Assembly (NCBI RefSeq): GCF_003814835.1
Contig: NZ_RKRG01000003.1
Location: forward strand, 124,001-188,000
From: Methanobrevibacter gottschalkii DSM 11977
Lineage (GTDB): Archaea > Methanobacteriota > Methanobacteria > Methanobacteriales > Methanobacteriaceae
Direction: 5' to 3'
DNA length: 64,000 bases
A model generated the notes under the pieces. The model ran no database searches. It was not told the origin of the DNA and worked only from the letters and a program-made list of their open reading frames with translations. Shown piece after piece: positions 5,766 through 44,239 of this stretch (position 1 is the first letter of the stretch; the number at the start of each line of letters is the position of its first letter). The position numbers and the translations under genes were made by a program.

Positions 5766-8700
5766 TTGAACAAACAATTATTACTCACTTTTCTTTTTGT
5801 ACTTGCAGTGATATTATCTGTTAGTGCAATTTCAGCTAGTGATGTAAATGTTACAGATTCTTACACAACAAGTGTAGCGGATGGCGCATCAAATGTCTCA
5901 GTTCCTATTGAAAATTCTGATGATTCATCAGTACTTTCTCTATCAAGCGAATCAGATGTTGGCAATGTATCATCTAAGAATTCTGAATCTGTAAAATCAA
6001 ATACTTTATCAACTAACTCGGATACTAACTCTTTAAGTAATAGGGGAAATGATGTTTTAGAAGTGAATAATACCGCTTCTCCAACTATTAATGCATCTGA
6101 AACTATTGCTTCAAAAGATATTACTAAGTATTATAAAGGAAGCACAGGTTATACTGCTAAATTTTTAGATATGCATGGTAATCCATTAAACGGGTCAGAT
6201 GTTAAAATTACTGTTAATGGTGTTACTTATACTAAAAAAACTAATAGTGTAGGTGTTGCTTCTTTAGCGATTAATCTTAAACCCGGAACTTACAAAATAG
6301 TTTCAGAAAATCTCATTACAGGTTATAAATTAACCAATACTATTAAAGTATTGTCAACCATTAATGCAAATGACGTTACTAAAGTTTATACTGACGGAAA
6401 GAAGTTTTATGCAACCTTTTTGAAAAGTAATGGTAAAGCTTTAGCTAATGCATATATCAAGTTTAAGATTAATGGAAAAACATACTCTAAGAAAACTAAT
6501 AGCAAGGGTGTTGCTAGTCTATCAATGACTAACCTTAAAAAAGGTACTTATAAAATGGTCTCTTATAATAAGGATGGTCTAACTAAAACTAATACTGTTA
6601 AAGTTGTTTCTAAGACTAGTTCAAAGCTTAATACCAATGCCTATACTTTCCTTAAAAGCGATAGTAAAAATATTAAAGTTACTTTACTTAACGGTTTAGG
6701 ATATGCACCAGGTTCAGGTAAAATAATCAAGTTCACCGTAAATGGTAAAACTTATTCTGCTAAAACCAACAGTAAAGGTGTAGCTTCACTTAAATTACCT
6801 TATTTAAAAGCAGGTACTTATACAGTAAAATACAAGTTTTCTGGAAATACATTTTATACTGCATCTAGTGCATCTAATAAATTATATATTCTTCCAAGTA
6901 AAACTGCTACTTTCACTGTGAAAAGCACAACAACTTTTGGTAAAGGTGCTAATACTCCTTTCAAGGTTGCTTTAACTTCAGGTAGTGTTCCTTTAGTAAA
7001 AAAAACTATTACTTTAACTGTAAATGGAAAGTCATATGATAAAACTACTGATAGTAATGGAATCGTTTCAATACCTATTGATTTACAAAATGGCAAATAT
7101 ACAGTAACCTATAAATTCAATGGTGATTCTAAAGTAAATGCTAAAACCGGATCTTCTTCAATTATAGTTAAGGAAAGAACTTCCACTAAAGTTACTTGGA
7201 AAAGTGGAACATCTTTCTATCAGGGTGCTCAGTCTTATAAAGTTTTATTGCAGGATTCTAATGGTAAAGCTTTAGCAAGTAAAGTTGTTAAATTAACTGT
7301 AAATGGTAAGACTTATTCAGCAACAACTTCATCAAATGGATATGCTACATTTAATGTAAATTTAGCTCCTGGAAATTACTCAATTTCACTAAAATATCCT
7401 GGAGATAATTCTTATGCTCCAAGCAATGGAAATGTAAAAGTCAGTGTTGAGAAAAAAGAAAATACAGGATATGGGTATTGGGTTTATGGTGAAGACATGA
7501 GCAATGTTGACCTTAAATCATTAGCTTCCAAAGGAACTAGCGATTTATTCTTAAACTTTAAAGCAATTGAGCTTCATGGTCAATCTAAAGTTGAATCATG
7601 GATTGCTAGCGCTAATAAGTTAGGAATGAGAGTTCATATTTGGATGCAAATATTCTATGAAGGTGGAAAATGGGTCAATCCTGTTAAAAATGGAAAACCA
7701 TATGAGGCATTTTTTGAGAAAAAAATAACTGAAGCTCAAGGATATGCAAAAATCAAAGGTGTGGCAGGTATACACTTTGATTATTTAAGATATTCAGGTA
7801 ATGGTGAAAGTGCTGCTCATAAAACTCCTGGTGGTGCTGCAGCAATAAGTCAATTCGTTGAGGATGCTACTGAAGCTATTCATAATATTGATTCTAATAT
7901 TATCGTTTCAGCTGCATTGATGCCTGAAACTACCAGTATTTTAAAATACTATGGTCAGGATTACTCGGTAATTAGTAAATACTTAGATGTAGTTATTCCA
8001 ATGATTTATAAAGGAAATTATGGTAAAACTTCAGCTTGGATTACTACAACTACAAAATGGTTTGTAGATAATTCTAATGGTGCTCAAGTATGGGCAGGCT
8101 TACAGGGATATAAATCTGATAGTAATGTTACTAAATTGTCTGCTTCCACAATCAAAACTGATGCACAGGCTGCATTAGATGGTAAAGCTCCAGGTGTAAT
8201 TATATTTAGATGGGGTGTAACTAACTTTGTAGATTTCAGTTCATTATCTGACAAATCCACATCCCCAAGTACTACTGGATCCGTAACTATTGCAGATATA
8301 ATTGCAGCAGCAAATAATTTGAAAAATGTTATTAATTCAAAGAATACAATCCCTGCAACAGTTAGCGTTGGTGGGTCAAGTTATTCAACTGCTCAGTTTT
8401 TATACATGATGACCGAAGCTGTTAAGAAGATTAATGGTGGTAAAACTTCATCACAAATATTGCCTATATCTGTTGGAGTTCCAACAAATCCATCTGGTTC
8501 ATTTAAATCAGGTAATATCGCATCCAGCGAATATGTGAATATGGCAATCAGTATTAATAGTTTCATTATGGAAAATGGTAGAGCTCCGAATTTCGCTTCA
8601 TCATCTTCATTAGGCACTATTGATTATGATTCTTTAGTTGAAATGTTTGCTGATATTTTAACAGACTATAAAGATAATAATAAATTGCCAACTTCTGTAA

Positions 8701-9704
8701 AAGTGGACAATGGTACAAAATCCGAAGTCATAACTGCCAAAACAATATCCATCAAGGATATCGTTACTGGTGCGACTAATTTGAAAAAATATTATAATGA
8801 TTATAAGAAGTTGCCTTCCACTGTTACTGCAGGTAAAATTACATTCAAATTATCTGAATTTGTTTACTTGATGAGTAAAGCTATTAATCAAATCGGAAAA
8901 TCTAATACAAAGGCAATTACTATAATCACTGGTATAGGTAATCCAACAAATCCTTCTGGAGATAATATTAATTCAAAATATTTATCAAAATCAGAGTATC
9001 TTAAAGTTGCATTAAATGTGACTAATTATATAAATAAAAATAAAGTAGCTCCTAATTATGTTTCATCCAGTCTTGGTAAAATTATCTACTCTGAATATGT
9101 CGATGCATTTTCACGTATCCTGGCATTTTATGGTAATGAAAATCGTTTACCAAATACAGTAACTATTAGTTATTCATCAGGATCCGGATCAAATTCTGGA
9201 ACTGGTGCAACTGGAACTGGTTTAAATGAAGCACTTAAAAATGGTACTGAGTTGTCACAATATCTTAAAGCTACTAAAAATTGTCAGGTAGACAATTCTA
9301 AGATTAAAGATATTGTTAACAAAGTGACTAAAGGTTTAACATCTGTTAAAGATAAAGCTACTGCAATTTATAATTATGTAAGAGACAATTTGGATTATAG
9401 TTTCTATTACAATACTAAATATGGTGCTGTAGGTGCTTTAAATGCTAAAAAAGGAAATTGTGTCGATCATTCACACTTGTTAGTCGCCATGTTTAGAACT
9501 GCTGATATTCATGCCAGGTATGTTCACGGTAAATGTACATTTTCCAGTGGAAGTACTTATGGTCACGTATGGGTTCAGGTGTTAGTTGATAAGAAATGGA
9601 CAGTTGCAGATGCAACAAGTTCAAGAAATTCTCTTGGAAAAGTAGCAAATTGGAATACTAATAAATTTTCATTTAATAATTATTATTCTGAACTTGGTTT
9701 CTAA
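5766..9704 (+). CDS. Secreted pseudomurein-targeted multidomain protein: Ig repeats, TIM-barrel glycosidase-like, PMBR, transglutaminase-like peptidase
   Basis: A 1312-residue exported protein. Signal peptide 1-25; Ser/Asn-rich linker to about 110; five Ig-like repeats (about 115-560) with the VNGKTYSxKTNSxGVASL pattern; a TIM-barrel domain (about 568-830) with GIHFDYLRYSG and VVIPMIYKGNYG, resembling GHL10/COG1649-type putative glycosidases; four pseudomurein-binding repeats (about 840-1140); and a C-terminal transglutaminase/C71-like domain (1168-1312) with Cys1232 (KKGNCVDHS), His1267 (YGHVWVQV) and Asp1282 (VADATS). PMBR plus Cys-His-Asp peptidase is the layout of pseudomurein endoisopeptidases. 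It probably remodels or binds the cell wall. TTG start, strong GGAGGT. Substrate of the barrel is unknown. Confidence 0.88.
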   Translation: MNKQLLLTFLFVLAVILSVSAISASDVNVTDSYTTSVADGASNVSVPIENSDDSSVLSLSSESDVGNVSSKNSESVKSNTLSTNSDTNSLSNRGNDVLEVNNTASPTINASETIASKDITKYYKGSTGYTAKFLDMHGNPLNGSDVKITVNGVTYTKKTNSVGVASLAINLKPGTYKIVSENLITGYKLTNTIKVLSTINANDVTKVYTDGKKFYATFLKSNGKALANAYIKFKINGKTYSKKTNSKGVASLSMTNLKKGTYKMVSYNKDGLTKTNTVKVVSKTSSKLNTNAYTFLKSDSKNIKVTLLNGLGYAPGSGKIIKFTVNGKTYSAKTNSKGVASLKLPYLKAGTYTVKYKFSGNTFYTASSASNKLYILPSKTATFTVKSTTTFGKGANTPFKVALTSGSVPLVKKTITLTVNGKSYDKTTDSNGIVSIPIDLQNGKYTVTYKFNGDSKVNAKTGSSSIIVKERTSTKVTWKSGTSFYQGAQSYKVLLQDSNGKALASKVVKLTVNGKTYSATTSSNGYATFNVNLAPGNYSISLKYPGDNSYAPSNGNVKVSVEKKENTGYGYWVYGEDMSNVDLKSLASKGTSDLFLNFKAIELHGQSKVESWIASANKLGMRVHIWMQIFYEGGKWVNPVKNGKPYEAFFEKKITEAQGYAKIKGVAGIHFDYLRYSGNGESAAHKTPGGAAAISQFVEDATEAIHNIDSNIIVSAALMPETTSILKYYGQDYSVISKYLDVVIPMIYKGNYGKTSAWITTTTKWFVDNSNGAQVWAGLQGYKSDSNVTKLSASTIKTDAQAALDGKAPGVIIFRWGVTNFVDFSSLSDKSTSPSTTGSVTIADIIAAANNLKNVINSKNTIPATVSVGGSSYSTAQFLYMMTEAVKKINGGKTSSQILPISVGVPTNPSGSFKSGNIASSEYVNMAISINSFIMENGRAPNFASSSSLGTIDYDSLVEMFADILTDYKDNNKLPTSVKVDNGTKSEVITAKTISIKDIVTGATNLKKYYNDYKKLPSTVTAGKITFKLSEFVYLMSKAINQIGKSNTKAITIITGIGNPTNPSGDNINSKYLSKSEYLKVALNVTNYINKNKVAPNYVSSSLGKIIYSEYVDAFSRILAFYGNENRLPNTVTISYSSGSGSNSGTGATGTGLNEALKNGTELSQYLKATKNCQVDNSKIKDIVNKVTKGLTSVKDKATAIYNYVRDNLDYSFYYNTKYGAVGALNAKKGNCVDHSHLLVAMFRTADIHARYVHGKCTFSSGSTYGHVWVQVLVDKKWTVADATSSRNSLGKVANWNTNKFSFNNYYSELGF

Positions 9705-27182: not shown

Positions 27183-30100
27183 TTGAAACTGAATAAAATA
27201 ATCGTTTTATCATTATTCCTTGTACTTATCTGTTTTATTGGAGCAGCAAGTGCAACTGAAGATGTCAATGATACAGCAATTGCTGATTCAGAAATTGATG
27301 AAGTAAGTGCTGTAGATATTGAACAATCTGTTGACGATAATGAGATAACAGAAATTCAAAGCAGTGATGAATCAAATAAGGTTCTTGCAAGGGGAACACC
27401 TACTACTGCGAAGGATTGGAATACATTAAGAACAAAATGTGAAAAAACAACTGATCAATATATAACATTGACTGGTACTAGTTATCCAATTGGAACTTAT
27501 ATAACTTTTAAAAATAGTGCTACAATTGTTGGTAGTGATGTTAGTTACATTACTGGAGGTTCTACTTCAAATACTCCTTTTGTAAATAATAATTCTGCTT
27601 TAACACTACATTTTATTAATGTGAAATTTTTAAATGTTAATGCTAAGAATTTGTTAGAGCTTGATGGTACTGTTTATTTGGATAATTGTACTTTTGATAA
27701 TGTTCAAACTGCAACCGGACACAATTCTGTAATTTATAATACTAATAATTTGATGTATTTGACTGGTTGTAATATTACTAATTGTCATACTGGTTATGGT
27801 GCTGTTAGTAATTATAACTCTGGAAGTACAACAAGTCCTGTAATGTATGTTGATGATTGTAGGTTTATTAATAATAGTGCTAGTGTAGAACCGGGTGCTA
27901 TTAATAATTGTGGAATTTTATATGTAAATAACTCTGAATTTGATGGTAACCATGCAAACTGGTGGGCTGGAGCAATTCATACTCATACAAATGCTCAAAC
28001 AGAAATTGAAAATACTAATTTTAGAAGAAACACTGCTGGATGGAATGGTGGTGCATTATTCACCTACAGCAAACTTAAAATAAAAAATTGTACTTTTGAA
28101 GACAACAACTGTACCACTAACAATGGTGGTGGAGCAATCGGAGCATACAACTATGGATCAGGATACAATATAACAATAGATTCATCTAGATTTAATTATA
28201 ATACAAACCTTTGCTATGCATACACAAATATTTCAACTACTTCAGTTGGTCGTGGAGGAGCAATCTCTGTACTTAATGGAGGTTATTTAACTGTTTATAA
28301 TTCAAATTTCACTGGAAACTATGCAAAAATAGGTCAGGCAATTGCAGCTGCAACCTATAATTATGAAAATGGAACTGGTGGAAACCCACACATTAAAATA
28401 TGCAACAATAAATTTACAGACCACACTGCAACTGGAATTGATACTGTAGTTATTACTGGAAATGATTATATATTCAACAACAATGTATTTATAAATAGTT
28501 ATCAAAACACCATTTATACAGGAACTGGAAACACATACAATTCTGCAGCTTTGCCGGGTAATCTGAATTCCAAATTGAATTTAAAAACAAAATTAAGAGC
28601 AACTAATACTGAAATTTTATCTGATTATCAGGATCATGATGTTGTTTATGTTAATGTTTCTTCAGATAAAGATGCAGAAGATGACAATGTTCATGGTCAA
28701 AGTTGGGATGATGCTTATGGTGGTTTGGAGTGTTTTGTAATGGCAATAAATTATCTTCATAATAATGGGATAATTTATATTGCAGATGGGCGTTATAATG
28801 AGGACTATGGCTATGAATACTCAATAGCTCATGGAAACTTTACTATGATTGGTCAAGGTCCAAAAACTAATATAGAGAAGATTATAACAACTGTATATGG
28901 AGGTAGTGATCAAAATTCTACTCATAATTTTATCAATTTATCTTTCACTGGTAAAGATTTTGGTATAAATGCTAATTTCATTAATTGTACATTTTTAGGT
29001 TCAATTTCAATTTCAAAAGGTCTCACATATCATGATCCTAATCATGTTGTGGAATATGGTTATGCTCAAACTTATTTCATGAACTTTAATAACTGTGTTT
29101 TCAAGGATGTCAATACTACTAATGCTTTAGTTACTCTTTATAAGTATGGTGCTGTGAACTTTACTAATTGTATTTTTGAAAATATTACTGCTGATTCAAT
29201 TGTTTATCGTAATGATATTAATTATTTTGAAGAGGATGGAATTTCATTTAAAAACTGCACTTTCACTAACTGTAAATATAATGGTATTGCTGATTCCTTA
29301 GCTAATTTTGATGATGCTGTTGTTATTGAGGATTGTACTTATGATAGTGAAGTTGCTTTAGGAACAACTGAAGTTAATGGTCATTATTATATAAATGCTA
29401 CTAAACTTAAAGTTACTGCTGTTGGCACAAGTATTTCAATTAAATCTAATGAAAATAATGTAATTGTTAATTTAACTGATGTTAACGGTAATCCTGTTGC
29501 TAATGCAGGTATAATTTATAGTATTGCCGGAACCAATGCCAGTGCAACTACTGGCGCTGACGGTACTTTCACTCTTTCTAATTTAAAAGGTATTGTAAAC
29601 ATCACTGTTTACTATTCAGGCAATGAATCTTATTTAGCTTCTAATAAATCTGATAATTTCATATTTAAATACAATACTGCTGTTTCCAGTGCGGTTAATG
29701 GTGATGATATTCTAATCATTTTAAAAGATGATGAGAACAATCCAATTGCAAACGCTAATGTAATTTATACAGTCAACGGCATTGACTACAATGCAACCAC
29801 AGATGAAAATGGAACAGTAACTGTTTCCAATTTAAAAGGTAAATTTGCATTCAACGTATTATATAAAGGAGACACACTACACACAGCTTCCAATGCTTCA
29901 AACACATTCATCTTCAAATATGGTACAAAAATTACAGCAAAAAAAGTAACAGCCACTTACAATGTTGCTAAAAACTTAGTTATCACATTAAAAGATGAAA
30001 ACGGAATTGCTATTGCAGGTAAAAAAGTAACCGTTAAAGTCGGATCTATCCGCAAGACTTTAACTACTAATGCTAAAGGTCAGGCTACTTTAAAAGTCAG

Positions 30101-30482
30101 CAATCTTTTGCCTAAAACATACTCTGCAACCGTAACTTATGCTGGTGATGATACACACATTAAATCCTCAGTTAAAGTTAAGGTTGTTGTTAAAAAAGCA
30201 ACACTTAAAGTATCTGCTAAGGCTAAAAAATTCAAAAAATCATTAAAAACCAAGAAATATTCTATTGTTTTGAAAAATAATGTGGGCAAAGTCCTGAAAA
30301 AGACTAAAGTTACATTAAAAATAAAAGGAAAAACATTCAAAGCATACACCAACAGCAAAGGCATTGCCACATTTAAAATTACCAAGTTAACTAAAAAAGG
30401 TAAATACAATGCTTACATTAAGTTTGCTGGAAGCAAATACTACAACAGCTTAAACAAAAAAGTCAAAATAACCTTAAAATAG
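27183..30482 (+). CDS. Adhesin-like protein: beta-helix plus Ig-like repeats
   Basis: A 1099-residue exported protein. Signal peptide 1-24 (MKLNKIIVLSLFLVLICFIG then AASA), beta-helix with GGA/GGAI-type Pmp-like repeats (GAINNCGILYVNNSEF, GGAIGAYNYGS) to about 450, a second helix starting at VYVNVSSDKDAEDDNVHG (about 480), then four Ig-like repeats from about 755 and a Lys-rich final Ig domain ending KVKITLK. No membrane helix, so attachment probably uses the basic Ig domains. Start TTG 27183 after GGAGGT. It ends in a terminator hairpin and is followed by a transposon remnant. Confidence 0.87.
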   Translation: MKLNKIIVLSLFLVLICFIGAASATEDVNDTAIADSEIDEVSAVDIEQSVDDNEITEIQSSDESNKVLARGTPTTAKDWNTLRTKCEKTTDQYITLTGTSYPIGTYITFKNSATIVGSDVSYITGGSTSNTPFVNNNSALTLHFINVKFLNVNAKNLLELDGTVYLDNCTFDNVQTATGHNSVIYNTNNLMYLTGCNITNCHTGYGAVSNYNSGSTTSPVMYVDDCRFINNSASVEPGAINNCGILYVNNSEFDGNHANWWAGAIHTHTNAQTEIENTNFRRNTAGWNGGALFTYSKLKIKNCTFEDNNCTTNNGGGAIGAYNYGSGYNITIDSSRFNYNTNLCYAYTNISTTSVGRGGAISVLNGGYLTVYNSNFTGNYAKIGQAIAAATYNYENGTGGNPHIKICNNKFTDHTATGIDTVVITGNDYIFNNNVFINSYQNTIYTGTGNTYNSAALPGNLNSKLNLKTKLRATNTEILSDYQDHDVVYVNVSSDKDAEDDNVHGQSWDDAYGGLECFVMAINYLHNNGIIYIADGRYNEDYGYEYSIAHGNFTMIGQGPKTNIEKIITTVYGGSDQNSTHNFINLSFTGKDFGINANFINCTFLGSISISKGLTYHDPNHVVEYGYAQTYFMNFNNCVFKDVNTTNALVTLYKYGAVNFTNCIFENITADSIVYRNDINYFEEDGISFKNCTFTNCKYNGIADSLANFDDAVVIEDCTYDSEVALGTTEVNGHYYINATKLKVTAVGTSISIKSNENNVIVNLTDVNGNPVANAGIIYSIAGTNASATTGADGTFTLSNLKGIVNITVYYSGNESYLASNKSDNFIFKYNTAVSSAVNGDDILIILKDDENNPIANANVIYTVNGIDYNATTDENGTVTVSNLKGKFAFNVLYKGDTLHTASNASNTFIFKYGTKITAKKVTATYNVAKNLVITLKDENGIAIAGKKVTVKVGSIRKTLTTNAKGQATLKVSNLLPKTYSATVTYAGDDTHIKSSVKVKVVVKKATLKVSAKAKKFKKSLKTKKYSIVLKNNVGKVLKKTKVTLKIKGKTFKAYTNSKGIATFKITKLTKKGKYNAYIKFAGSKYYNSLNKKVKITLK

Positions 30483-31702: not shown

Positions 31703-34700
31703 ATCAATAAGAAATTATGCATTGGCCTTATTATTTGTTTTATTTTATTCTCATTAAACACGGCATTTGCATCAAATGAAACACAGAATAATGTTGATTG
31801 TTTGAAAAACTCAGATGATGTTTTAAATATCGATGTTTTAAACCAAAATTCTACTGTTAATTATCCAAGGAGCCATAAAACAATTGAAATTACACAGGAT
31901 AATTATGAAAATTATTTTAATATTAGAACAGGAAAGATTATTGATGCCTCATGTATTTCTAAGGGAGATACTTTAAAAATTGGCAATATTTCAAATAGGG
32001 CTTTTGTTATAGATCGTCAACTTATATTAATGCCAATCTCTTCTAATGATAAGATTAGTAATGGTTTTATCCATCTTATTAAAGGAAGTGATGGTTCTAC
32101 TGTAACAAATCTTACTATTAATAATACAAAAGATAGATTAAATATTTTAGGTGGAAATGTAGGTCAATTACATGGTATTTGGTTATCAAATTCTAATAAT
32201 AATCTTATTTCATATAATACAATAAGGATTGCAAATGCTGCAGGCGTTTATGCCATGCCTATGGGTTGGTCAAGCAATAATAGAATTATTTACAATAATA
32301 TGAAAACATATATCACATGTAATATGGTTATGGGACAATGTCATTATAATTTAATTTCACATAATAGTTTAGAATTGTTAAGTTATTCCGATACATCTGT
32401 TACAAATTTAATTTATTTTAATCCTTTTGGGCATGCCGATTATAGTGGTTCTGGATTATGTAAATATAATATGATTTCATTCAATGATTTTAAAGGTTTT
32501 TCTAATGGGCCTATGTCCATTTTATTACAAAGTGTTTATGAAAATCATGATGGCACTGTTATTGCAAATAACACTTTTTCTAAAGGCTCATATGCTATTC
32601 ATTTATTTGGTAACAATATTTCTGTTTATGGTAATGTAGTACTCAATAGTGGTATTGGTATTTCTGTTTTTGGACGTAATTTTTCTGTTCATAATAATGC
32701 TGTAATTGGTGACAGTCAAGGTTATGGTATTATGGCAGAAGCGAATGGTGGTTCGCTGTGTAATGTTTATAATAATAATATTACTTTTATAGATGTTTAT
32801 AATGCAATATTTATTGGTAATCATGTCAAAGCTTATAATAATTATATAAATATCAAAGAATATGGGGTGAGTATATTTATTAAAGGTAACTGCTCCAATA
32901 TTCATGATAATAGGATTAATAACAAACATGATGCTGGTATATCAGTATTAGGTAATAATAACACTATAAATAACAATATTATTAATACCAAAAATATAGG
33001 TATTACACTACCTGCTAGATCTACTAACTGCCGTTATTATAATAATACATTTACCAATAATAAAATTAATAGTGAAAGTTATGGTATTTATATTGATGGT
33101 TTAGTTTATAATTGTATAATATTGGATAATATTATTGAAACTAATAGTACTATGGGCATTTTTAAAGACATAACTGATGAATTATCCAATATTGAAGAAA
33201 ATAACATGGTTAATGGTGTTATTTTAGATTCAACATATATTATTGTCAATAATACTAACTATCATAAATATTTTGATAAATATGGGCATTTAACATTTAA
33301 ATTCGAAAAAAATAAAACTAAAATAATATTTTTAACATTTTTAACAAATAAAAATTTAATTTTTCAGGAAAAAATAAATGTAATTAGTAATAAAATGAAC
33401 AATTTACTAATTAATGTTACAATTACTTTTGAAACCAATGCCAGTGGTTCATTAATACGTGATTTTAATTTTATTAATCATGATAAAGAAGCTATTATTC
33501 TAAATGGTGTTAATGATGTTACAGTCACTAGGAATAATATTACAAATTTATTTAGAAATGGCAGTTTATCTAATTCAGCTGTATTGATTCAAGATGTTTG
33601 TGAAAATCTTATAATATCCTATAATAATATATATGTAAATTCAAGAACACATTGTTATACTTATGCAATCAATGCTCCTTCAATTAATCCAGCTACTCAT
33701 AAAATGAATAACAAATTATCTAAAAGAGTTAATATTTTAGATAATACAATAATCATGATTTCTTCAGGTATTACAGAAGCTATTTACACTGATACTCTAT
33801 CTGAAAGTAATTTTATTTCTAATAAAATTAATATTATTTCTAAAAATTATGGATATGGTATTGCAGTTTCTAATATGATTGGAAGGTTATCTGATATTAA
33901 TGTTTCAAATAATGAAATTGTTATCCATAGTGAGCAAATGGCATATTTAATCGAACTTCTCCAAGTGGATAATTCAACAATTGAAAATAATAAGTTATAT
34001 GGTAAAAGTAATGGAGTCTATGCTATTGGTATATATTGGTCTGATAATATTTCTGTTAATAATAATGCCATTTCTGTATTTGGTGGAAATTTATCTAAAA
34101 TTTTAGAAATATCTGATGTATTAGGTATCGGAAATTCAGCTATAGCAATACTTAGGAATTCATCTAAAATTATTATTTCCGAAAATATTATTTATGCTAA
34201 TCTTTCAAAAACAATATTTGACAATACTACTGATGGGATTATAAATGCATCTTTTAATTCATTTATTATTGATAATGAGAACTATAACTGTTATTTTAAT
34301 GAGGTTGGAGAATTATATTCTAATGTTGTAATAAAAAATAGTACTTTGCTAATTCATAATTTAACAAAAAATCAATTATTGATTATAAATGATCTAGTTA
34401 AAATCTCATCTTATGATTTAAATTCACCCTCTTCAATTTCAATAATTTTTAAAAATAATGCATCAAATTCAATTATTTCCAATGCATCTTTTATTAATTC
34501 TTCAATTGATTTAATCAATGTTTCAAATATTAATATTATAAATAACACTTTTAACTCTTCAAATAGTTGTATATTAAATATTAATGGTGGAGAAAAAAAT
34601 TTATTTGTTAATAATGAGCTATTTATTAATTCTACTGATATTTCAGTGATTAATCTCAATAAAACTTTATTAAATATTATAAAAAATAATAATATTAAAT

Positions 34701-37396
34701 TCAATACATCTAATTCTAAAATTATAACTATTAATAATTCTAATTTCACATTGATTAGTAATAATGTAATAATAGGCATATCCGATTCATTAATTTTTAT
34801 TTGTTCTAAGGGTTCAAGTTATGATAATATTTATAAAAATATATTAAATGCTAATGCTTCGTCAATATGCGGATATTTAGCTTCTAATGCAAAATGGAGT
34901 AGTATTAGTTATAATAATATTTTAATTAATAAATCAACCAATCAGTCAGCTATATATTATTGTAATAACTCATCTAATAATACAATTAATGAAAACTATA
35001 TTATTTCATATTCACTAAATGCTAATGACTATGCAGTTTCAGTAATTTCAAATGAAAGTTTATCAAATTTAATAATTAAAAACTATTTAATAAGTTCTAA
35101 TGGATTTAAACGAGCTAATTTTGCAGTATACGCTCCATTTGATTTGGTTAAAGATAATTCTCCATTTGACATTTATGTTTCATGTAATGGAAGTGATGTT
35201 GTAGGAGATGGTAGTATTGATAATCCTTATGCTACAATCAAAAAAGCTATTGAAAATAGTTTAAATTTGTATGTTATACATGTATTTGATGGAAATTATA
35301 CTGAGTCTAATATTATTATTGATAAGAATTTAACACTTGTTGCTGTTAATTTAGGTAAAGTTTTCATTGATGTTCAAATTAATCAATTATTTGATATACT
35401 TGAAGATAATACTTTATCAATTTCTGGCTTTTTAATTGGAAATGCTCATAATGTTGATGGAGGATCCGTATTTATTAACAATGGTAAGTTGTTCATTAAT
35501 AATGTAGTTATATTTAATTCCTCATCTTATTTTGATAATTCTCATCCAATATTTGACCAAAATATAACTTATCATGAAGATAATTTAATTGATAAAGCAC
35601 ATACAGTTGATTGTTCTAATACAGGTAAAGGCGGAGCAATTCTCAATAACGGTGAATTAATTATTAATTCATCTATCTTTTTTAATAATTTTGGGCATCG
35701 TGGTGGTGTAATAGCTGATTATGGCAAAACTATTATAAATTCATCTATTTTTTATAATAATCGGGGAATTCATGGAGGATGTATTTATTCAGATTCAAAA
35801 AATAATTTGTTTGTAATTAACTCTATTTTTAATAATAACACAGCAGTAACTTCAATAGACTTTTGTAAAATCATGTTACATTCCATTGGTTGGTCAATTG
35901 GAGAGAATTATATTTATAATTATAAATCTGAATGTGATTCACCAATTGGTGCTGGTGGAGTAATTTATACTAAAAATACTTCAGTATTAATTAAAAATTC
36001 ATCTTTTATTTATAATTCTGCTCGTATTGGTGGTGTAATAGCCACACAATGTGATATTTTTACACAACTATCAAATTTTATTTCTGATGTTAATTTATAT
36101 ATTGATAATTGTTATTTTAATAGTAATAAGGCTAATGATACTAGATTTAAAGATGATCCACTTTATTTAAAGAACTATGATTATTTTAACGATTATAATG
36201 GAGGAGTTGTTTATGGAACATACAATAAACTATATATAAATGCTTCTAATTTTTATTATAATCAGGTTATTAATAATGGAGGAGTTTTATATGCTAAAGC
36301 TAATGATGGTAAGATAATAGACTCTATTTTCAATAATAATCGTGCAGGAAGTAATGGTGGTGCTTTAGATATTTCAAAAAATTTCCTTATCATGAGATCA
36401 ATTATTTCAAATAATTCAGCTAGATATGGTGGAGCTATTGAATATGATTCTTATACCTATTATGGGCATATTCAAGACAACTTTAACATTTATAATTCCA
36501 CCATATCTAATAATAAAGCTTTAAATGCTGGTGGTGCATTTAACATAGGTTCTGGAAATGTTTCTGTTCATGATTCAAATATTGTAAATAATTTTGCACC
36601 TTCTGGTACTACAATAAATTCTCATGGAATCAAATACGCTATTGATATGAGATATAACTATTGGGGTGTATTGCCAAATGGTCATATTGGACCTGATGAC
36701 TCAGTTTGGAATGTGAATCATAATTTATTTAAACCATGGTACAAACAATGGGTAGAATGGAAGCCAAAAGTCATTGAATCAAATAATTCTGGTTTTAACT
36801 CTAATTCTAGTAATCATAATCCTTATATCAATCCTAATTCCAACTCTGGTGGAAATAATCATAATAATCCAATATCTACAGGATCTAGTTCTTCCACTAC
36901 AACTTCAATTGGTGGAGCTAATGGGAATAATCATGGATACGGTAATGGGAAATACTTTGGTTCAGGTGATGGAAATAATTTGGGTCCGAGTAGTGGAAAT
37001 GGAGGTTTTTATTTAGCTATTCCAGGTTATAATAAATATAATGGGCAAAATGTGAATTCAAATACCTCATCAAATTCACATAAGTCTCAAAATCGTGGAA
37101 ATGTTGATTCAGATAGCCTCAGTAAATCAAATAGTTCAAAATATAATCCTGATTTAGTTTCTGCTGGTTTTACTGTTAATGCTGCTTCATCTCCATCAAG
37201 TTCTCAAAGAGGAATAGAACGTGCTAGTAAGGAATCAGGTTCTTTAAGTGATTCAGCATCTTATGAAATTACTAAAAAAATTAAAGAAGTCTTTTATGAT
37301 GAGAACCATATAACTACGTTTATTTTATTTATAATTATTATATTGTTTTTAATAATTTTAGGATACAAATATGGAGTTGGTAAATTTGATGAATGA
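31703..37396 (+). CDS. Giant adhesin-like beta-helix protein, transmembrane-anchored; start codon anomalous
   Basis: About 1897 residues. The in-frame signal peptide (INKKLCIGLIICFILFS then LNTAFA) begins at ATC 31703; no ATG, GTG or TTG exists in frame between the stop at 31676 and TTG 31802, which lies after the signal peptide. Three beta-helix blocks each begin with an NYxxYF cap (DNYENYFN, TNYHKYFD, ENYNCYFN); a later one begins IYVSCNGSDVVGDGS; Pmp-like GGAI/GGVI turns follow; then a Ser/Asn/Gly-rich stalk, SYEITKKI, a membrane helix and a short tail. Surface adhesion is inferred. Either ATC initiation or a frameshift in the signal peptide (see findings). Confidence 0.75.
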   Translation: MNKKLCIGLIICFILFSLNTAFASNETQNNVDCLKNSDDVLNIDVLNQNSTVNYPRSHKTIEITQDNYENYFNIRTGKIIDASCISKGDTLKIGNISNRAFVIDRQLILMPISSNDKISNGFIHLIKGSDGSTVTNLTINNTKDRLNILGGNVGQLHGIWLSNSNNNLISYNTIRIANAAGVYAMPMGWSSNNRIIYNNMKTYITCNMVMGQCHYNLISHNSLELLSYSDTSVTNLIYFNPFGHADYSGSGLCKYNMISFNDFKGFSNGPMSILLQSVYENHDGTVIANNTFSKGSYAIHLFGNNISVYGNVVLNSGIGISVFGRNFSVHNNAVIGDSQGYGIMAEANGGSLCNVYNNNITFIDVYNAIFIGNHVKAYNNYINIKEYGVSIFIKGNCSNIHDNRINNKHDAGISVLGNNNTINNNIINTKNIGITLPARSTNCRYYNNTFTNNKINSESYGIYIDGLVYNCIILDNIIETNSTMGIFKDITDELSNIEENNMVNGVILDSTYIIVNNTNYHKYFDKYGHLTFKFEKNKTKIIFLTFLTNKNLIFQEKINVISNKMNNLLINVTITFETNASGSLIRDFNFINHDKEAIILNGVNDVTVTRNNITNLFRNGSLSNSAVLIQDVCENLIISYNNIYVNSRTHCYTYAINAPSINPATHKMNNKLSKRVNILDNTIIMISSGITEAIYTDTLSESNFISNKINIISKNYGYGIAVSNMIGRLSDINVSNNEIVIHSEQMAYLIELLQVDNSTIENNKLYGKSNGVYAIGIYWSDNISVNNNAISVFGGNLSKILEISDVLGIGNSAIAILRNSSKIIISENIIYANLSKTIFDNTTDGIINASFNSFIIDNENYNCYFNEVGELYSNVVIKNSTLLIHNLTKNQLLIINDLVKISSYDLNSPSSISIIFKNNASNSIISNASFINSSIDLINVSNINIINNTFNSSNSCILNINGGEKNLFVNNELFINSTDISVINLNKTLLNIIKNNNIKFNTSNSKIITINNSNFTLISNNVIIGISDSLIFICSKGSSYDNIYKNILNANASSICGYLASNAKWSSISYNNILINKSTNQSAIYYCNNSSNNTINENYIISYSLNANDYAVSVISNESLSNLIIKNYLISSNGFKRANFAVYAPFDLVKDNSPFDIYVSCNGSDVVGDGSIDNPYATIKKAIENSLNLYVIHVFDGNYTESNIIIDKNLTLVAVNLGKVFIDVQINQLFDILEDNTLSISGFLIGNAHNVDGGSVFINNGKLFINNVVIFNSSSYFDNSHPIFDQNITYHEDNLIDKAHTVDCSNTGKGGAILNNGELIINSSIFFNNFGHRGGVIADYGKTIINSSIFYNNRGIHGGCIYSDSKNNLFVINSIFNNNTAVTSIDFCKIMLHSIGWSIGENYIYNYKSECDSPIGAGGVIYTKNTSVLIKNSSFIYNSARIGGVIATQCDIFTQLSNFISDVNLYIDNCYFNSNKANDTRFKDDPLYLKNYDYFNDYNGGVVYGTYNKLYINASNFYYNQVINNGGVLYAKANDGKIIDSIFNNNRAGSNGGALDISKNFLIMRSIISNNSARYGGAIEYDSYTYYGHIQDNFNIYNSTISNNKALNAGGAFNIGSGNVSVHDSNIVNNFAPSGTTINSHGIKYAIDMRYNYWGVLPNGHIGPDDSVWNVNHNLFKPWYKQWVEWKPKVIESNNSGFNSNSSNHNPYINPNSNSGGNNHNNPISTGSSSSTTTSIGGANGNNHGYGNGKYFGSGDGNNLGPSSGNGGFYLAIPGYNKYNGQNVNSNTSSNSHKSQNRGNVDSDSLSKSNSSKYNPDLVSAGFTVNAASSPSSSQRGIERASKESGSLSDSASYEITKKIKEVFYDENHITTFILFIIIILFLIILGYKYGVGKFDE

Positions 37397-37437: not shown

Positions 37438-40400
37438 ATGTCATATACTAAATTTATTTTAATATTATCAATAATATTCCTACTGTTTGCTTCAATAGCT
37501 TTTGTTAGTGCTGCTGATACTAATACGAGCATTGTAGAAGAACCAATGGATGTTAAACATAATTTATGTGATATTAATAATTCTTTAGAAAATCAAGAAA
37601 TTTATGTCAGTCCATTAGGTGATGATGATGCTAATGGAAGTTTTCAAAATCCTGTTTCCTCCATTCATCATGCTGTTGCAATGGCAAAAAATAATTCTAA
37701 AGTTATTTTAATGGAGGGGGAATATAAAGGTGCAAATAATACATTTATTTTAATTAATAAAAATTTAACAATTGAATCTTTTTCAAATAATGTTGTTATT
37801 AATGGAGAGAATAAACATGCATTTTTTAAAATAACCCCCTCTTCTTCTTTAATACTTAATAATATTAAATTTATTAATGGATATACAGATTCTTATTCTC
37901 AATTAGGTATTATTAATAATCTTGGAACATTAGTGATAAACAATTCTTCATTTAATAATATGAACTCTATTATGGGAACATTTTTTAATGAAGGAACTTT
38001 AAAAATTGAAAATACCAAGGTTACTAATGCAGTTTCTTTAACAATGGCTCAAATATTAACTAATATTGGGAATACTACTATATTAAATTCCCAATTAATT
38101 GAAAACAATGAATATTCTTCAATTGATGTTGTTGTTTATAATTATAATAGGATTAGTATTGTTAATTCTCAAGTTAATAATTTATTTTCAAATAAGAAAT
38201 ATTCTGAAGATTCATATAATTTAGCTTCAATTCTTATTAATAATTCTAAGTTAGATAACATTGATCTTGAAGATGCATTTGTTTGTATTCACAACTCTCA
38301 AATCACATTTAAATCTATTTTTAATGGTTGTAATGTTTCTGTTGATGAGAGTACATTTCTTTATAATAAGTCTCTTTTTTCAATAATTAATGTAATGAAT
38401 TCAAATTTTACAGCGATTCATTCAGTTTTTAATTCTCCTATTTCAACTAAACGTTCGCATGTTAATATAACATATTCTGCAATTTTAAGATCAATATCTG
38501 GAAATGCCTATAAATGTTATCTTTATGCTCCTTATAATTGGTGGGGTATTAATTCAGGTCCATCTTATCAATACTTTACAGATGTTAATGTTAGTTATTG
38601 GGCAATATCTACTTTCGAATATGAATCTGACTATATTCCAATTAATCCTAATTCCACTTTTACAACAACATTAAATAAATGGAGTGATGGGAATTCTACA
38701 TTTGAATTTAAAACAGAAGAATATTTACCGTTTAGACATTTGAAATTTGAATCTCAAAATGGTAAATTTTTATATTCATCTGCAAATATCGAAAAAGTTT
38801 TTTCAAATTATTTAATTGGAAACAATCTTGATTGTCAAGTTCATGTTATTATAGACTTTCAAAGGTTGACTCTTAGAATTGGAGAAGGTTTAACTAACTA
38901 TAATTATTTTGTCTCAACAGAAGGGCATGACGGTTTAGGAAATGGTACTTTCGAACATCCATTTAAGACAATAAATTATGCTGTTTCCAAAGTAGGAAAT
39001 GGAAACACTATTTGTTTATTAGAAGGGATTTATAAAGGCAATTGGAATTCTAATGTTACAATTACGAAGAATATAACTATTGTTGGATTAGGAAATGTAA
39101 ATTTACTAAGATCTAATGATTATAGTATCTTCAATATTAAAGAATGGGGAAGTTTGTCTTTAAAAAACATTAATTTCTCTGTTGATATAATTGATTATGC
39201 ACATCCATTAATTATTTTAAATGGTGGGAATTTATCTATTATCAATTGTTCTTTTTCAAATATAACTTCTACAAATGTTATCCACACATCTAATGGGATA
39301 GAACATAATGGAATTGTTAATATATCTGATTCTTATTTTGCAGATATTTCAGGCTCAATATTAATAGGGTCTGCTAAAGTAAGTGTTTCAAATTCTTTAT
39401 TTGAAAAAATTAAATGCTATAGGATAATTCAAGGATATGAATATTATAATGTACTATTTGCAATTTCATCTTCCATAGAAATTTATAGTTCCTGTTTTCA
39501 AAATAATTTAATGGGTATTGTAAATTTACATCCATTTTTTTATTCATCATCAAAACTTAGATATTCTCAATATAGTAATGCATATTCAAGATATGCTTAT
39601 ATTAAAAACACAAAATTTGAAAATAATGTATTTTTCGATAAGAATTCTTATTATTCAAGTAATGGAATTGGATTGGATATTTATAATGAAAATGAACATT
39701 TTTATGGAATTATAGATAACTGTTCATTCATTAATAATAAAGGTCAATTAGCCATCGCCACCAGTGTTAATTCATCAATATTTATGAATAATTTTGAATC
39801 CCGTTATGGTTATAGTATGGTTTATGCTGATTTAATTAATAATTCAGTTTTTATTAATAATAAAAATCTGTATGAAGATTATAATAATGTATTTATCGGT
39901 AATGGCATAGCTAGTGCTGGATGTATATTGGAGTCTATTTTTATGTATAATGAAGCTGCTTTTGGTGGAGCTATTGCAGATACAAAAGAAGCCCATTATT
40001 GTGTTTTTGTAAATAACACTTCTAAATATGGTGGTAACGATATTTATTCTTATTCAGGAGATGTAGATTATTCTAGTAATTGGTGGGGTGATAATCAAAA
40101 ACCAAACTCTGATAAAGTTTTTATTTTCCTTGGAACTTTAACTTTGAATAATTGGGTCATAATGACATTTGAGTCTGTTTCAAATTCTATTATTAAAGCT
40201 TCATTAAATGCTCTTAATAATGGGGAAGGTAATATTTGTAAAATTAACCACAACATGCCTTCTCGCATGGTTTATTTCAAAATTAATCATGGAAGTCTTT
40301 CTCCAGAGAATACTTTACTTATAAATAATTCTGCTTATACAAACATGACTTATAATTTAAATTTAGATTTTAAAGTCTATGCAAGAATTGATAATCAACT

Positions 40401-43400
40401 ATTAGAGTTAGATATTAGAAATACAAAAACTCTCTTAATAATGGAAGATGTTATTTTTAAAGGTAAAAGTAATAATTTTGCTGTTGATTTAATCAATATT
40501 AATGGTTATAAAATATTTAATCAAACATTAGTTGTTGAAATTATTGATGAGAATAATACACAGAATATATTTACAATTCAAACTGATGATAATGGTCATG
40601 CAGAATTTAATGTAGATTATCCAGTTGGTATTTATCAGGTAAATATTAATTATTTAGGTAATGGATATTTTGATAAATGCAATTCTACTTCTATAATGAA
40701 AATAATAAAATCTAATACTTATTTAATTAGTTATAATCAAACATATTACGGCAAAAATAACTTGTTTAAATCTGTATTATTTGGTGAAGGAAATAAGAAA
40801 TTAAGCAACATGACTATAAAATTCACGATTATAGATTCTAAAGGTAATTTAAGGGAAATCTATTCTTTAACAAATCAAGACGCCACTAGTGAAATTATTA
40901 TCAATTTGGATGTAGGTGAGTATACAATAAGGTCTGAATTTTTAGGTGATTTATGGTATTCTTATTCAAGCAGTATTTCTCATATATTGGTCAATCCTGT
41001 TAGTTCCACACTAATTGTTTCTAATGTTACATTATATGGTGTGGGTGATGTTTATAATATTACTTTAAAAGATATTCATGGATCATTGATACGTGGTGAA
41101 AATATTATTGTCACAATAACTCAAGGAGCATCATGTGATAAATTTACATTAAAAACAGATAATAATGGTGTTGCAAAATTAACTATAAACTATTTACCTG
41201 GAGTTTATAATGTTAAAGCTCAGTTTTTAGGAGATAGTATATATGCCCCTACTAGTGGTGAGGGAGTTATTAAAGTTGAAAAAATTTTTACTATAATTTC
41301 AGGGTTCCATCATTGTATTTTACCATTAAATGGGATATACACAGTTGTTTTAAGTGATATGTATGGGCGACGTGTCAATAATGAATCTGTAACATTATCC
41401 TTATATAAAGGCAATCTAATAAAGAAATACACAATTAATACTGATGCTAATGGAGAAGCTGATTTTGTTATAAACCTTGAAGAAGGAACTTATCTAACAA
41501 CTTTTGAATATGGTGGAAATAAATGGTATTGTGATGCAACTAATGCTGCAACTATTGTTATTAGTAAAAAAGTTAATTTATCCAACATTAATATAAATTC
41601 AACAGATTTGGTTCAGTATTATGGGGAAAATAAATATTTCATAATAAAATTTAATGATCCTAATGCATATAGCCAATATGGCAAAAAAATTGGAGTTACA
41701 ATATCTTCTGGCTCATGGTCACAATCTTATGAAGTTTTCACTGATATTTTTGGTCTTGCACGTTTAAAAATCAATTTGAATCCTGGAGAATATAATATTA
41801 CTTACAAATATTCAAATAGTCATTATAATATATTTGGCACATCTTCAAATACTATACATGTTTATAAAATGCCTGCTGTTTTAATAGCGAATAATATTGT
41901 GATGAAAAGTAATGAACAACAATTATATGAAATAAATCTCAGAGATATTAATAATAATCCTATCAAAAACATGCTTGTAAATATTGATATTGATGGTGTG
42001 AAATATAATTCCACTACAAATGATGAGGGTATAGCTAAAATATTACTTAGTTTGGGTGTTGGAAAGCATATTATTAGTTATAATTTTATCAATCCAAATT
42101 ATTTGTCCTCAAACTCATCATCTGTTATTCTAGTTGTTGATAGTGATAAAATACCTTCAAATTTATATTCACAAGATATTAATGCATTTGATAATCAAAT
42201 ATTAAATTTCACTATACGATTGTCAGACATGTTAAATAATAGCATATCAAGTTCTGAAGTAATACTTGAGCTTTTTACATTTTATGGAGAGTCAATTATT
42301 AATATTACTGGTATCACAGATTCCAACGGAAGAATTAGCTTTGATTTAAATTTAGATTATGGAAAATATATAGCTAATTTACATTATAATGGAAATGCTT
42401 TGTATTTAGCTAGCTATTCAACTAATACGATTAATATTGAATCAGCTGATAATCGTACAAAAACCATTTTATTTAATGTAGAGACAAAATTAACTAATTC
42501 TAAATATTATGTTATTTTGTCCGATATTAATGGAACTTTGCTTGTTAATAAAGAAATTAAATTTATCATTGGAAATAAAACAATTACTTCCATAACTGAT
42601 GAAAAAGGAAGAGCTTACTTGGAATTAAACCTAAATCCTAATTATTATATTATAAAAGCTATTTTTAATGGGGATAAGGATTACAAATCAGTTTCTAGTT
42701 TGAAAAAGATATTTATTTCAGGTGAACTAACGCATTTATATGCTATACCATTAGTTAAATATTATAGGAATGGAACTCAATTTCATGCAAGACTTGTGAA
42801 TTCTAAAGGAGTTCCTTTAATTAATAAAATATTATCTATTTTATTGGAAGGGAATTATTATAATTGTACAACTGATGAAAATGGATGGATTACATTAAAT
42901 ATTGACTTAAAACCAGGATTTTATGATGTGGAATGTTACTATTATTCAAATAATACTGATGAAAATTCTTTTGATAAAACCAATATCACAGTATTATCTA
43001 CTGTTTTAGGTCAAAGTGAAGTGAAATATTATGGAGATTATCCTTATTTAACAATTAAATTTTTAGATGGTGCGGGAAATCTAATTAAAAACACAAGTTT
43101 TGTTATTGATATTGATGGTAAGAAATACTCTGCACAAACTAATGATGAGGGTATTTTTAATTTTAATCTTAATTTAAATTCAGGAAGTCATCTTATTTCA
43201 GTTAACAATCCTTATGATGGGTTATTTGTGACGTATAAATTAGATATTTTAACAACTATTTGCTCAAATAATCTAGTTAAAGTTTTTAACAATGGAGTTT
43301 CATATACTGCGCAATTACTTGATAGCTTTGGAAATCCATTAAAAAATAAAAACGTAAAAATAATTATTAATGGTGTTTTATATTATAAAAAAACAGATGT

Positions 43401-44019
43401 TAAGGGTATTTTAGAATTAAATATGGATTTTAATCCTAAAATTTATCTTGTGACAGTTTTTAATCCAGTTACTAAAGAATATATTGAAAATACAGTTAAA
43501 ATATTGCCAACACTTATTAATAACAAGAATATAAATATGTATTTCTCGAATTGTGCTTTTTATAAAGTTCGTGCCATTGGAAGTGATGGTAAAATTGTTG
43601 AATCGGGGGTAATTGTTAAAATTAAAGTTAATGGAAAATCTTACAAAATTAAAACAAATAAAGATGGTTATGCTTTGTTTAAAATAAACTTAAAACCTGG
43701 AAAATATATAATTACTGCAGAATACAATTCATACATTGTATCAAATAAAATTAATGTAAAATCATTACTAACAGCTAAAAACATTTTTCATAAAAAAGCT
43801 AAAAAGATTAAATTTTCATCTAAATTAGTTGATATTAAAGGAAAAGCATTAAAAGGTAAAAAAATAACTTTTAAATTTAAAGGAAAAGTCTATAAAGTTA
43901 AAACTAATAAAAATGGAATAGCCACACTTACGATTAAGAATTTAAAAGTTGGAAAATATACTATAATGTCAATATGGAATAAATTCAGGATAAAAAACAC
44001 TATTAAAATTAAAAAATAA
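37438..44019 (+). CDS. Giant adhesin-like protein: beta-helix and many Ig-like repeats (2193 aa)
   Basis: Signal peptide MSYTKFILILSIIFLLFASI then AFVSA. Two beta-helix blocks begin with the cap IYVSPLGDDDANGS (about residue 50) and YFVSTEGHDGLGNGT (about 490). From about residue 1000 to the end come roughly a dozen Ig-like repeats (pattern KYYGxxxYxxIKFxDxxGxxIxN, then TNDEGIxxFNLNLxPGxY), the last being a Lys-rich domain with KGKKITFKFKGKVYKVKTN. No membrane helix: the basic C-terminal domains probably bind the wall. ATG start with GGGTGT upstream; 41 bp from the preceding adhesin-like gene, so possibly co-transcribed. It is convergent with the 44236 gene, whose C terminus is homologous. 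Confidence 0.87.
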   Translation: MSYTKFILILSIIFLLFASIAFVSAADTNTSIVEEPMDVKHNLCDINNSLENQEIYVSPLGDDDANGSFQNPVSSIHHAVAMAKNNSKVILMEGEYKGANNTFILINKNLTIESFSNNVVINGENKHAFFKITPSSSLILNNIKFINGYTDSYSQLGIINNLGTLVINNSSFNNMNSIMGTFFNEGTLKIENTKVTNAVSLTMAQILTNIGNTTILNSQLIENNEYSSIDVVVYNYNRISIVNSQVNNLFSNKKYSEDSYNLASILINNSKLDNIDLEDAFVCIHNSQITFKSIFNGCNVSVDESTFLYNKSLFSIINVMNSNFTAIHSVFNSPISTKRSHVNITYSAILRSISGNAYKCYLYAPYNWWGINSGPSYQYFTDVNVSYWAISTFEYESDYIPINPNSTFTTTLNKWSDGNSTFEFKTEEYLPFRHLKFESQNGKFLYSSANIEKVFSNYLIGNNLDCQVHVIIDFQRLTLRIGEGLTNYNYFVSTEGHDGLGNGTFEHPFKTINYAVSKVGNGNTICLLEGIYKGNWNSNVTITKNITIVGLGNVNLLRSNDYSIFNIKEWGSLSLKNINFSVDIIDYAHPLIILNGGNLSIINCSFSNITSTNVIHTSNGIEHNGIVNISDSYFADISGSILIGSAKVSVSNSLFEKIKCYRIIQGYEYYNVLFAISSSIEIYSSCFQNNLMGIVNLHPFFYSSSKLRYSQYSNAYSRYAYIKNTKFENNVFFDKNSYYSSNGIGLDIYNENEHFYGIIDNCSFINNKGQLAIATSVNSSIFMNNFESRYGYSMVYADLINNSVFINNKNLYEDYNNVFIGNGIASAGCILESIFMYNEAAFGGAIADTKEAHYCVFVNNTSKYGGNDIYSYSGDVDYSSNWWGDNQKPNSDKVFIFLGTLTLNNWVIMTFESVSNSIIKASLNALNNGEGNICKINHNMPSRMVYFKINHGSLSPENTLLINNSAYTNMTYNLNLDFKVYARIDNQLLELDIRNTKTLLIMEDVIFKGKSNNFAVDLININGYKIFNQTLVVEIIDENNTQNIFTIQTDDNGHAEFNVDYPVGIYQVNINYLGNGYFDKCNSTSIMKIIKSNTYLISYNQTYYGKNNLFKSVLFGEGNKKLSNMTIKFTIIDSKGNLREIYSLTNQDATSEIIINLDVGEYTIRSEFLGDLWYSYSSSISHILVNPVSSTLIVSNVTLYGVGDVYNITLKDIHGSLIRGENIIVTITQGASCDKFTLKTDNNGVAKLTINYLPGVYNVKAQFLGDSIYAPTSGEGVIKVEKIFTIISGFHHCILPLNGIYTVVLSDMYGRRVNNESVTLSLYKGNLIKKYTINTDANGEADFVINLEEGTYLTTFEYGGNKWYCDATNAATIVISKKVNLSNININSTDLVQYYGENKYFIIKFNDPNAYSQYGKKIGVTISSGSWSQSYEVFTDIFGLARLKINLNPGEYNITYKYSNSHYNIFGTSSNTIHVYKMPAVLIANNIVMKSNEQQLYEINLRDINNNPIKNMLVNIDIDGVKYNSTTNDEGIAKILLSLGVGKHIISYNFINPNYLSSNSSSVILVVDSDKIPSNLYSQDINAFDNQILNFTIRLSDMLNNSISSSEVILELFTFYGESIINITGITDSNGRISFDLNLDYGKYIANLHYNGNALYLASYSTNTINIESADNRTKTILFNVETKLTNSKYYVILSDINGTLLVNKEIKFIIGNKTITSITDEKGRAYLELNLNPNYYIIKAIFNGDKDYKSVSSLKKIFISGELTHLYAIPLVKYYRNGTQFHARLVNSKGVPLINKILSILLEGNYYNCTTDENGWITLNIDLKPGFYDVECYYYSNNTDENSFDKTNITVLSTVLGQSEVKYYGDYPYLTIKFLDGAGNLIKNTSFVIDIDGKKYSAQTNDEGIFNFNLNLNSGSHLISVNNPYDGLFVTYKLDILTTICSNNLVKVFNNGVSYTAQLLDSFGNPLKNKNVKIIINGVLYYKKTDVKGILELNMDFNPKIYLVTVFNPVTKEYIENTVKILPTLINNKNINMYFSNCAFYKVRAIGSDGKIVESGVIVKIKVNGKSYKIKTNKDGYALFKINLKPGKYIITAEYNSYIVSNKINVKSLLTAKNIFHKKAKKIKFSSKLVDIKGKALKGKKITFKFKGKVYKVKTNKNGIATLTIKNLKVGKYTIMSIWNKFRIKNTIKIKK

Positions 44020-44204: not shown

Positions 44205-44239
44205 TTAAAAAAATAGTAATAGAGGTTTCAAACCTCTAT
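44205..44239 (-). terminator. Terminator of the 44236 gene
   Basis: Perfect stem ATAGAGGTTT/AAACCTCTAT (44219-44239, 1-nt spacer in the palindrome) spans the TAG stop; on the minus strand it is followed by TACTATTTTTTTAATT. Confidence 0.7.

Follow-up and report, generated by a model that had tools for sequence, protein, structure and literature searches.

Can a single secreted archaeal protein cut both the glycan and the peptide of pseudomurein? The question is raised by one gene in a stretch of 64,000 nucleotides from Methanobrevibacter gottschalkii DSM 11977 (contig NZ_RKRG01000003.1, positions 124,001 to 188,000), referred to here as the window. The gene (window positions 5766-9704, + strand) encodes a protein of 1312 amino acids comprising a signal peptide, immunoglobulin-like (Ig) repeats, a TIM barrel, five pseudomurein-binding repeats (PMBRs) and a transglutaminase-type peptidase domain, in that order. 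The analysis indicates that the product is probably a secreted, wall-bound pseudomurein hydrolase with two activities, belonging to the methanogen itself and acting as an autolysin or wall-remodelling enzyme. Its barrel is a strong candidate for the first known glycan-cutting enzyme of pseudomurein.

Domain organisation of the window protein

The open reading frame (ORF) begins with a TTG start codon, with the sequence GGAGGT about 8 nucleotides upstream. By direct reading, with no predictor, the N-terminus is a Sec-type signal peptide of approximately residues 1-24 (MNKQLLLTFLFVLAVILSVSAISA; 5766-5837; all features of the protein are on the + strand), and a Ser/Asn low-complexity region lies between it and the Ig-like repeats. 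These repeats, whose outer borders are approximate (about residues 112-562, 6099-7451), were matched by Pfam Big_3_5 in four stretches and by Big_1. The barrel spans residues 565-835 (7458-8270). It is followed by the PMBRs at about residues 841-1136 (8286-9173), where PF09373 scored 107.5 bits (E 1.4e-31) in five stretches; four repeats were placed individually, at 8508-8591, 8736-8828, 8973-9065 and 9075-9167. The transglutaminase-fold cysteine peptidase domain occupies residues 1150-1312 (9213-9701). The signal peptide and all of the domains listed in an earlier note on this sequence, including a separate barrel between the Ig repeats and the PMBRs, were thus borne out by direct reading, Pfam and AlphaFold2.

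The barrel carries a conserved putative active site

Pfam family PF13200 (DUF4015, 'putative glycosyl hydrolase domain') matched residues 634-759 (E 6e-10); the 39.1 bits exceed the family cut-off of 27 and place the barrel in this family. An AlphaFold2 model of residues 563-837, built from an alignment of 62 relatives, forms a complete (beta/alpha)8 barrel with a predicted local distance difference test score (pLDDT) of 96.0 and a predicted template-modelling score (pTM) of 0.92. In TIM-barrel glycosidases the active site lies at the C-terminal mouth. This mouth is ringed in the model by D672, the final residue of strand beta4 (GIHFDYLRY; 7779-7781), E721, directly after beta5 (SAALMPE; 7926-7928), Y748 after beta6, Y782 after beta7, and F814/R815 at the end of beta8. 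D672, E721, Y748 and Y782 are invariant in alignments of 46 and 39 archaeal relatives; with viral, Bacteroidales and Clostridia sequences added (62 sequences), D672 was still invariant and E721 was kept in more than 90%. The acidic pair on which the earlier note had made the glycosidase idea depend is present at the mouth, with D672 invariant and E721 nearly so. As the most likely chemistry, the candidate general acid would be E721, and D672 would serve as nucleophile, as base or as the stabiliser of an N-acetyl-assisted intermediate.

Foldseek matched the barrel model to endo-galactanases, PgaB, Cwp19, SleL and chitinases, among which PgaB, Cwp19 and SleL are enzymes of cell-wall or biofilm glycans. 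The barrel-family profile matched 4s1a (1.6e-14) and Cwp19 (4e-14), and GH18 chitinases more weakly. GH18 enzymes carry a DxDxE motif with the catalytic Glu on beta4. D672 aligns with the Asp preceding this Glu and the Glu position itself is Leu in the window protein; GH18 membership was ruled out because the catalytic Glu of DxDxE is absent. The catalytic Glu with which beta7 ends in PgaB and GHL13 appears to have no counterpart in the window barrel, where this strand end reads GLQGY. No Pfam match of the window protein to GHL10 was found at E up to 1, and GHL10 matched 4 of the 46 barrel relatives at E <= 0.001; Pfam thus does not assign the window protein to GHL10/COG1649, although a distant relation is real. 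The comparison with COG1649 and other glycosidases that had been proposed therefore upheld the glycosidase-like character and not COG1649 itself: among named families DUF4015 is the closest, while Cwp19/GHL10 and GH18 are related more remotely. As modelled, the barrel appears glycosidase-like with a plausible acidic pair, yet it is neither GH18 nor, by score, GHL10. A Tyr/Lys/Arg/Trp-rich insertion of about 90 amino acids lies between beta3 and the next helix in most barrels of loci L046-L053, L062, L063 and L133.

The C-terminal domain has a transglutaminase fold and an invariant triad

The best family for the C-terminal domain was PF01841 (Transglut_core), which matched residues 1182-1283 with 84.4 bits (E 8e-24); PF12386 (Peptidase_C71) reached 20.1 bits, just below its cut-off of 22. 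The Cys-His-Asp triad that had been read from the sequence (C1232, H1267, D1282) is at those positions and is invariant in 23 aligned relatives. AlphaFold2 modelled the domain with a pLDDT of 93.9, and the best Foldseek matches of the model were a Cytophaga transglutaminase-like protease and the pseudomurein peptidases PeiP and PeiW, transglutaminase-fold enzymes that are proven hydrolases (PMC2989375). On this sequence evidence the domain appears to work like C71 while being filed in the wider transglutaminase family.

The barrel is paired with wall peptidases in viruses

A scan of IMG/VR with the barrel returned nine loci. In four of these (L069, L071, L072 and L074) the product is about 590 amino acids long, with the barrel at the very start, followed by a PMBR and a C39-like cysteine peptidase, and with no signal peptide; the PMBR of L072 is weak, below the Pfam cut-off. 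An integrase gene lies downstream of the barrel gene in L071 and L074. In L075 and L076 PMBR and barrel occur without a peptidase in one protein, near portal or terminase genes. The L075 PMBR shares 48% identity with the PMBR of PeiW, a proven lytic enzyme, and in L076 a gene for PMBR and C39 overlaps the barrel gene by 10 nucleotides. In L070 an Ig-barrel gene is followed by an Ig-C71-like gene, and L073 has the same modules in one protein. By sequence, the barrel is therefore joined to three kinds of predicted wall peptidase: transglutaminase, C39-like and C71-like. On a midpoint-rooted tree the viral copies require at least 5 separate changes. Methanogen viruses need enzymes against the host wall, so these proteins point to pseudomurein as the target of the barrel.

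No close match to the barrel was found in GenBank phage records or BFVD, none in plasmids, and no relatives emerged when viral sequences were scanned with the transglutaminase alignment. A distant barrel (L077:8075-10684) ends a viral protein of 869 amino acids with Ig-like and, by eye, beta-helix-like parts; its branch is long and its position in the tree unsure.

Distribution and paralogs in methanogens

Of 150 Methanobacteriales genomes, 133 contained a relative of the barrel, with every one of the 19 sampled genera represented, which argues that the barrel is not a chance occurrence. Across the phylum, 112 of 152 genomes had a DUF4015 match over the cut-off. Among 46 diverse barrel proteins, many of them truncated by the ends of the flanking sequence, which affects both counts, 32 had a PMBR and 19 a Transglut_core domain. 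Fusions of barrel, PMBR and transglutaminase were found in the genus of the window, in further genera of its family and in one second family; a chance or mis-assembled fusion was ruled out by this recurrence across genomes.

The genome of the window holds several paralogs. At L033:5892-10310 two secreted Ig-barrel proteins with neither PMBR nor peptidase are encoded in tandem behind a PGA_cap gene, and such tandem pairs were seen again in related genomes. L164 encodes an Ig-PMBR-transglutaminase protein without a barrel. L163:731-1549 encodes a short protein of PMBR and Peptidase_C71 with no signal peptide, possibly a provirus lysin or the relic of one; it shares 37% identity with the C71-like domain in the viral locus L073.

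Barrel and transglutaminase homologs occur together in rumen Bacteroidales

A genome scan revealed barrels 28-39% identical to that of the window in rumen Bacteroidales; in the midpoint-rooted tree they group as a single clade within the archaeal sequences (100/100). A transglutaminase homolog lies near the barrel in all eight Bacteroidales genomes tested. One such homolog aligns with the PMBR-transglutaminase region of the window protein over 361 amino acids (E 3e-30), and in two the full catalytic domain aligned at 37-38% identity. In these bacteria the barrel and the PMBR-transglutaminase are separate genes that are kept together, and the latter is a lipoprotein in SusC/SusD loci. Besides SusC/SusD, the loci encode GH20 hexosaminidases, GHL10, MurQ, M20 and C1-like peptidases and a glutamate symporter, and also a kinase and a transporter resembling enzymes of N-acetylglucosamine (GlcNAc) use (NagK/NagP-like). 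In one bacterial family, for which 120 genomes were compared, barrel and transglutaminase are present in the same 5 and both are missing from the other 115; the probability of this by chance is 1 in C(120,5), about 5e-9 if genomes are independent, and shared descent makes the true value larger. Bacteria do not build pseudomurein, and the simplest reading of the pair here is therefore a degradative one.

Contamination was ruled out as the origin of the Bacteroidales copies in the loci examined, because guanine-plus-cytosine (GC) content differs (0.47-0.57 against 0.33), the contigs concerned also carry SusC/SusD genes, and in the tree all the copies belong to a single nested clade. The SusC/SusD loci at L118-L140, with the wider regions L157-L162, feature 2-3 barrel lipoproteins, a PMBR-transglutaminase lipoprotein and large PMBR-like/BACON proteins, and represent a possible utilisation locus for pseudomurein (or murein). 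In addition, a barrel sharing about 55% identity with the window barrel is encoded on contigs with a GC content of 0.62-0.65 from metagenome-assembled genomes named as Lentisphaerae, Verrucomicrobia and Coriobacteriaceae (L089, L090, L092); the L089 barrel falls inside the Methanobrevibacter branch of the tree, which suggests a recent transfer.

We tentatively propose, as a broader idea that could well fail, that the barrel defines the first pseudomurein glycosidase family, found in methanogens, their viruses and rumen Bacteroidales, and that the bacteria, having acquired both barrel and PMBR-transglutaminase from methanogens, eat methanogen walls by means of their SusC/SusD loci.

Proposed function and rival explanations

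In the function that we regard as probable, two-activity hydrolysis of pseudomurein, the signal peptide would direct export, the Ig repeats would form a stalk and the five PMBRs would hold the protein on pseudomurein. There the C-terminal Cys-His-Asp domain would cut peptide cross-links, and the barrel would cut the glycan strands of GlcNAc and N-acetyltalosaminuronic acid. Such a hydrolase would probably serve wall turnover, cell separation or autolysis. The data show the architecture, the predicted folds, the conserved putative sites and the recurrent pairing of this barrel with PMBR and with three kinds of wall peptidase in archaea, viruses and bacteria, whereas the catalysis, the substrate, the bonds attacked and the cooperation of the two domains in the cell are inferred; for substrate and cooperation, the dual cutting put forward in the earlier note gains support from the viral and Bacteroidales contexts. 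Several observations weigh against this function. The 17 of 150 Methanobacteriales genomes with no barrel match mean that the barrel is not essential for having pseudomurein. The GH18 catalytic Glu is absent from the barrel and the beta7 Glu of PgaB/GH5 appears to be absent too, which leaves no solved relative whose mechanism could simply be transferred to it. The Ig-barrel paralogs of L033, with neither PMBR nor peptidase, indicate that the barrel might have further substrates, the hosts of the viral contigs were inferred from gene content, and the Bacteroidales loci hold MurQ, which acts on MurNAc-6-phosphate (MurNAc, N-acetylmuramic acid), a murein sugar absent from pseudomurein; murein may also be a target there. 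Finally, the transglutaminase domain may cross-link and not hydrolyse, as exported transglutaminases have been suggested to be the missing cross-linking enzymes (Leahy et al., PMC2812497; pangenome study, PMC11915815).

A cross-linking host transglutaminase is accordingly the main rival, although we consider it unlikely. The protein would then assemble or remodel the wall, the transglutaminase domain making Glu-Lys cross-links and the barrel trimming or transferring glycan, loosely like a bifunctional penicillin-binding protein. That the gene is a housekeeping gene of a wall-bearing host, with a barrel-free PMBR-transglutaminase paralog (L164), fits such a role; it is harder to reconcile with the same barrel in viral lysin-like proteins, with a homologous PMBR-transglutaminase lipoprotein in SusC/SusD loci of pseudomurein-free bacteria, and with the proven hydrolases PeiW and PeiP (PMC2989375) among the structural matches. 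It is also rather improbable that the peptidase alone acts on pseudomurein while the barrel is non-catalytic, for example lectin-like, or directed at capsule, glycoprotein or host glycan. The PMBR-free Ig-barrel paralogs adjoining a PGA_cap gene would suit such a barrel, and no experimental DUF4015 activity was found in the literature searched; against this, the active-site-type residues are conserved in archaea, viruses, Bacteroidales and Clostridia, unlike those of a decayed enzyme, and in the viral proteins that join PMBR and barrel without a peptidase (L075, L076) the PMBR already provides binding, so that a barrel that did no more than bind would be superfluous. Very improbable, in our view, is a weapon with barrel and peptidase aimed at the murein of bacterial competitors and not at pseudomurein. 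Its appeal lies in the profile match to Cwp19, a murein lytic transglycosylase (PMC6016235), in the MurQ of the Bacteroidales loci and in a report of archaea with bacteria-killing murein hydrolases (PMC12352652), but the same report gives just two murein-hydrolase homologs in pseudomurein classes, and PMBR targeting, spread through the pseudomurein order and the lysin-like proteins of methanogen viruses all speak for a pseudomurein target.

Possible significance and other genes of the window

A glycan-cutting enzyme, if confirmed, would serve to open methanogen cells for staining, DNA extraction or transformation, to map the glycan, and in methane-control work, where PeiR has been the enzyme used to date. 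Such an enzyme would also account for wall remodelling by these archaea and the exit of their viruses, and would suggest that some rumen bacteria digest methanogen walls. Elsewhere in the window, a cluster of large adhesin-like ORFs extends over 27183-49971. Four of these ORFs were searched with Pfam: Ig-like repeats were detected in 27183-30482, 37438-44019 and 44236-49971, and 31802-37396 had no Pfam match.

Comparison with known systems

The pseudomurein enzymes described in the parts of the literature available to us are peptidases only (PMC2989375, PMC4592898, PMC6189367). Like the window protein, PeiW and PeiP (C71) and PeiR (C39 type) combine PMBRs with a pseudomurein cysteine peptidase, and PeiW and PeiP share the fold and the Cys-His-Asp triad of its C-terminal domain. 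The window protein differs in being host-encoded and secreted, in having Transglut_core in place of C71, and in its extra barrel, the Pei enzymes consisting of PMBR plus peptidase only (PMC6189367). Group III (transglutaminase, or TG, type) adhesin-like proteins of Methanobrevibacter smithii and Methanosphaera also have Ig-type repeats, PMBRs and a C-terminal transglutaminase, and one M. smithii protein has a 'putative glycosyl hydrolase domain'; in the sections available, that account treats them as adhesins and does not discuss a two-activity wall enzyme (PMC11532034). The literature searched, with most subscription papers outside its scope, contained no account of a glycosidase for pseudomurein, of lysins that carry the barrel, or of the locus seen in Bacteroidales.

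DUF4015 members of Clostridia and others have HxDYxR on beta4 and SAALMPE on beta5, as in the window barrel, and the bacterial members form their own well-supported clade (99/95), apart from it; the literature searched held no characterised bacterial member. Cwp19 (GHL10) of Clostridioides difficile, a secreted wall-binding protein, has a related barrel (Foldseek template-modelling score, TM, 0.70, besides the profile match at E 4e-14) and is a lytic transglycosylase cleaving murein glycan (PMC6016235). It differs from the window protein in its murein substrate, in beta4 (HFDDY against HFDYLRY), in having no E721 equivalent in the profile alignment and in its lack of a peptidase domain. Among bacterial autolysins and phage lysins, bifunctional ones carry a glycosidase and a peptidase or amidase in one polypeptide, with wall-binding repeats. 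The window protein would follow a similar working plan, with unrelated domains and on a chemically different wall.

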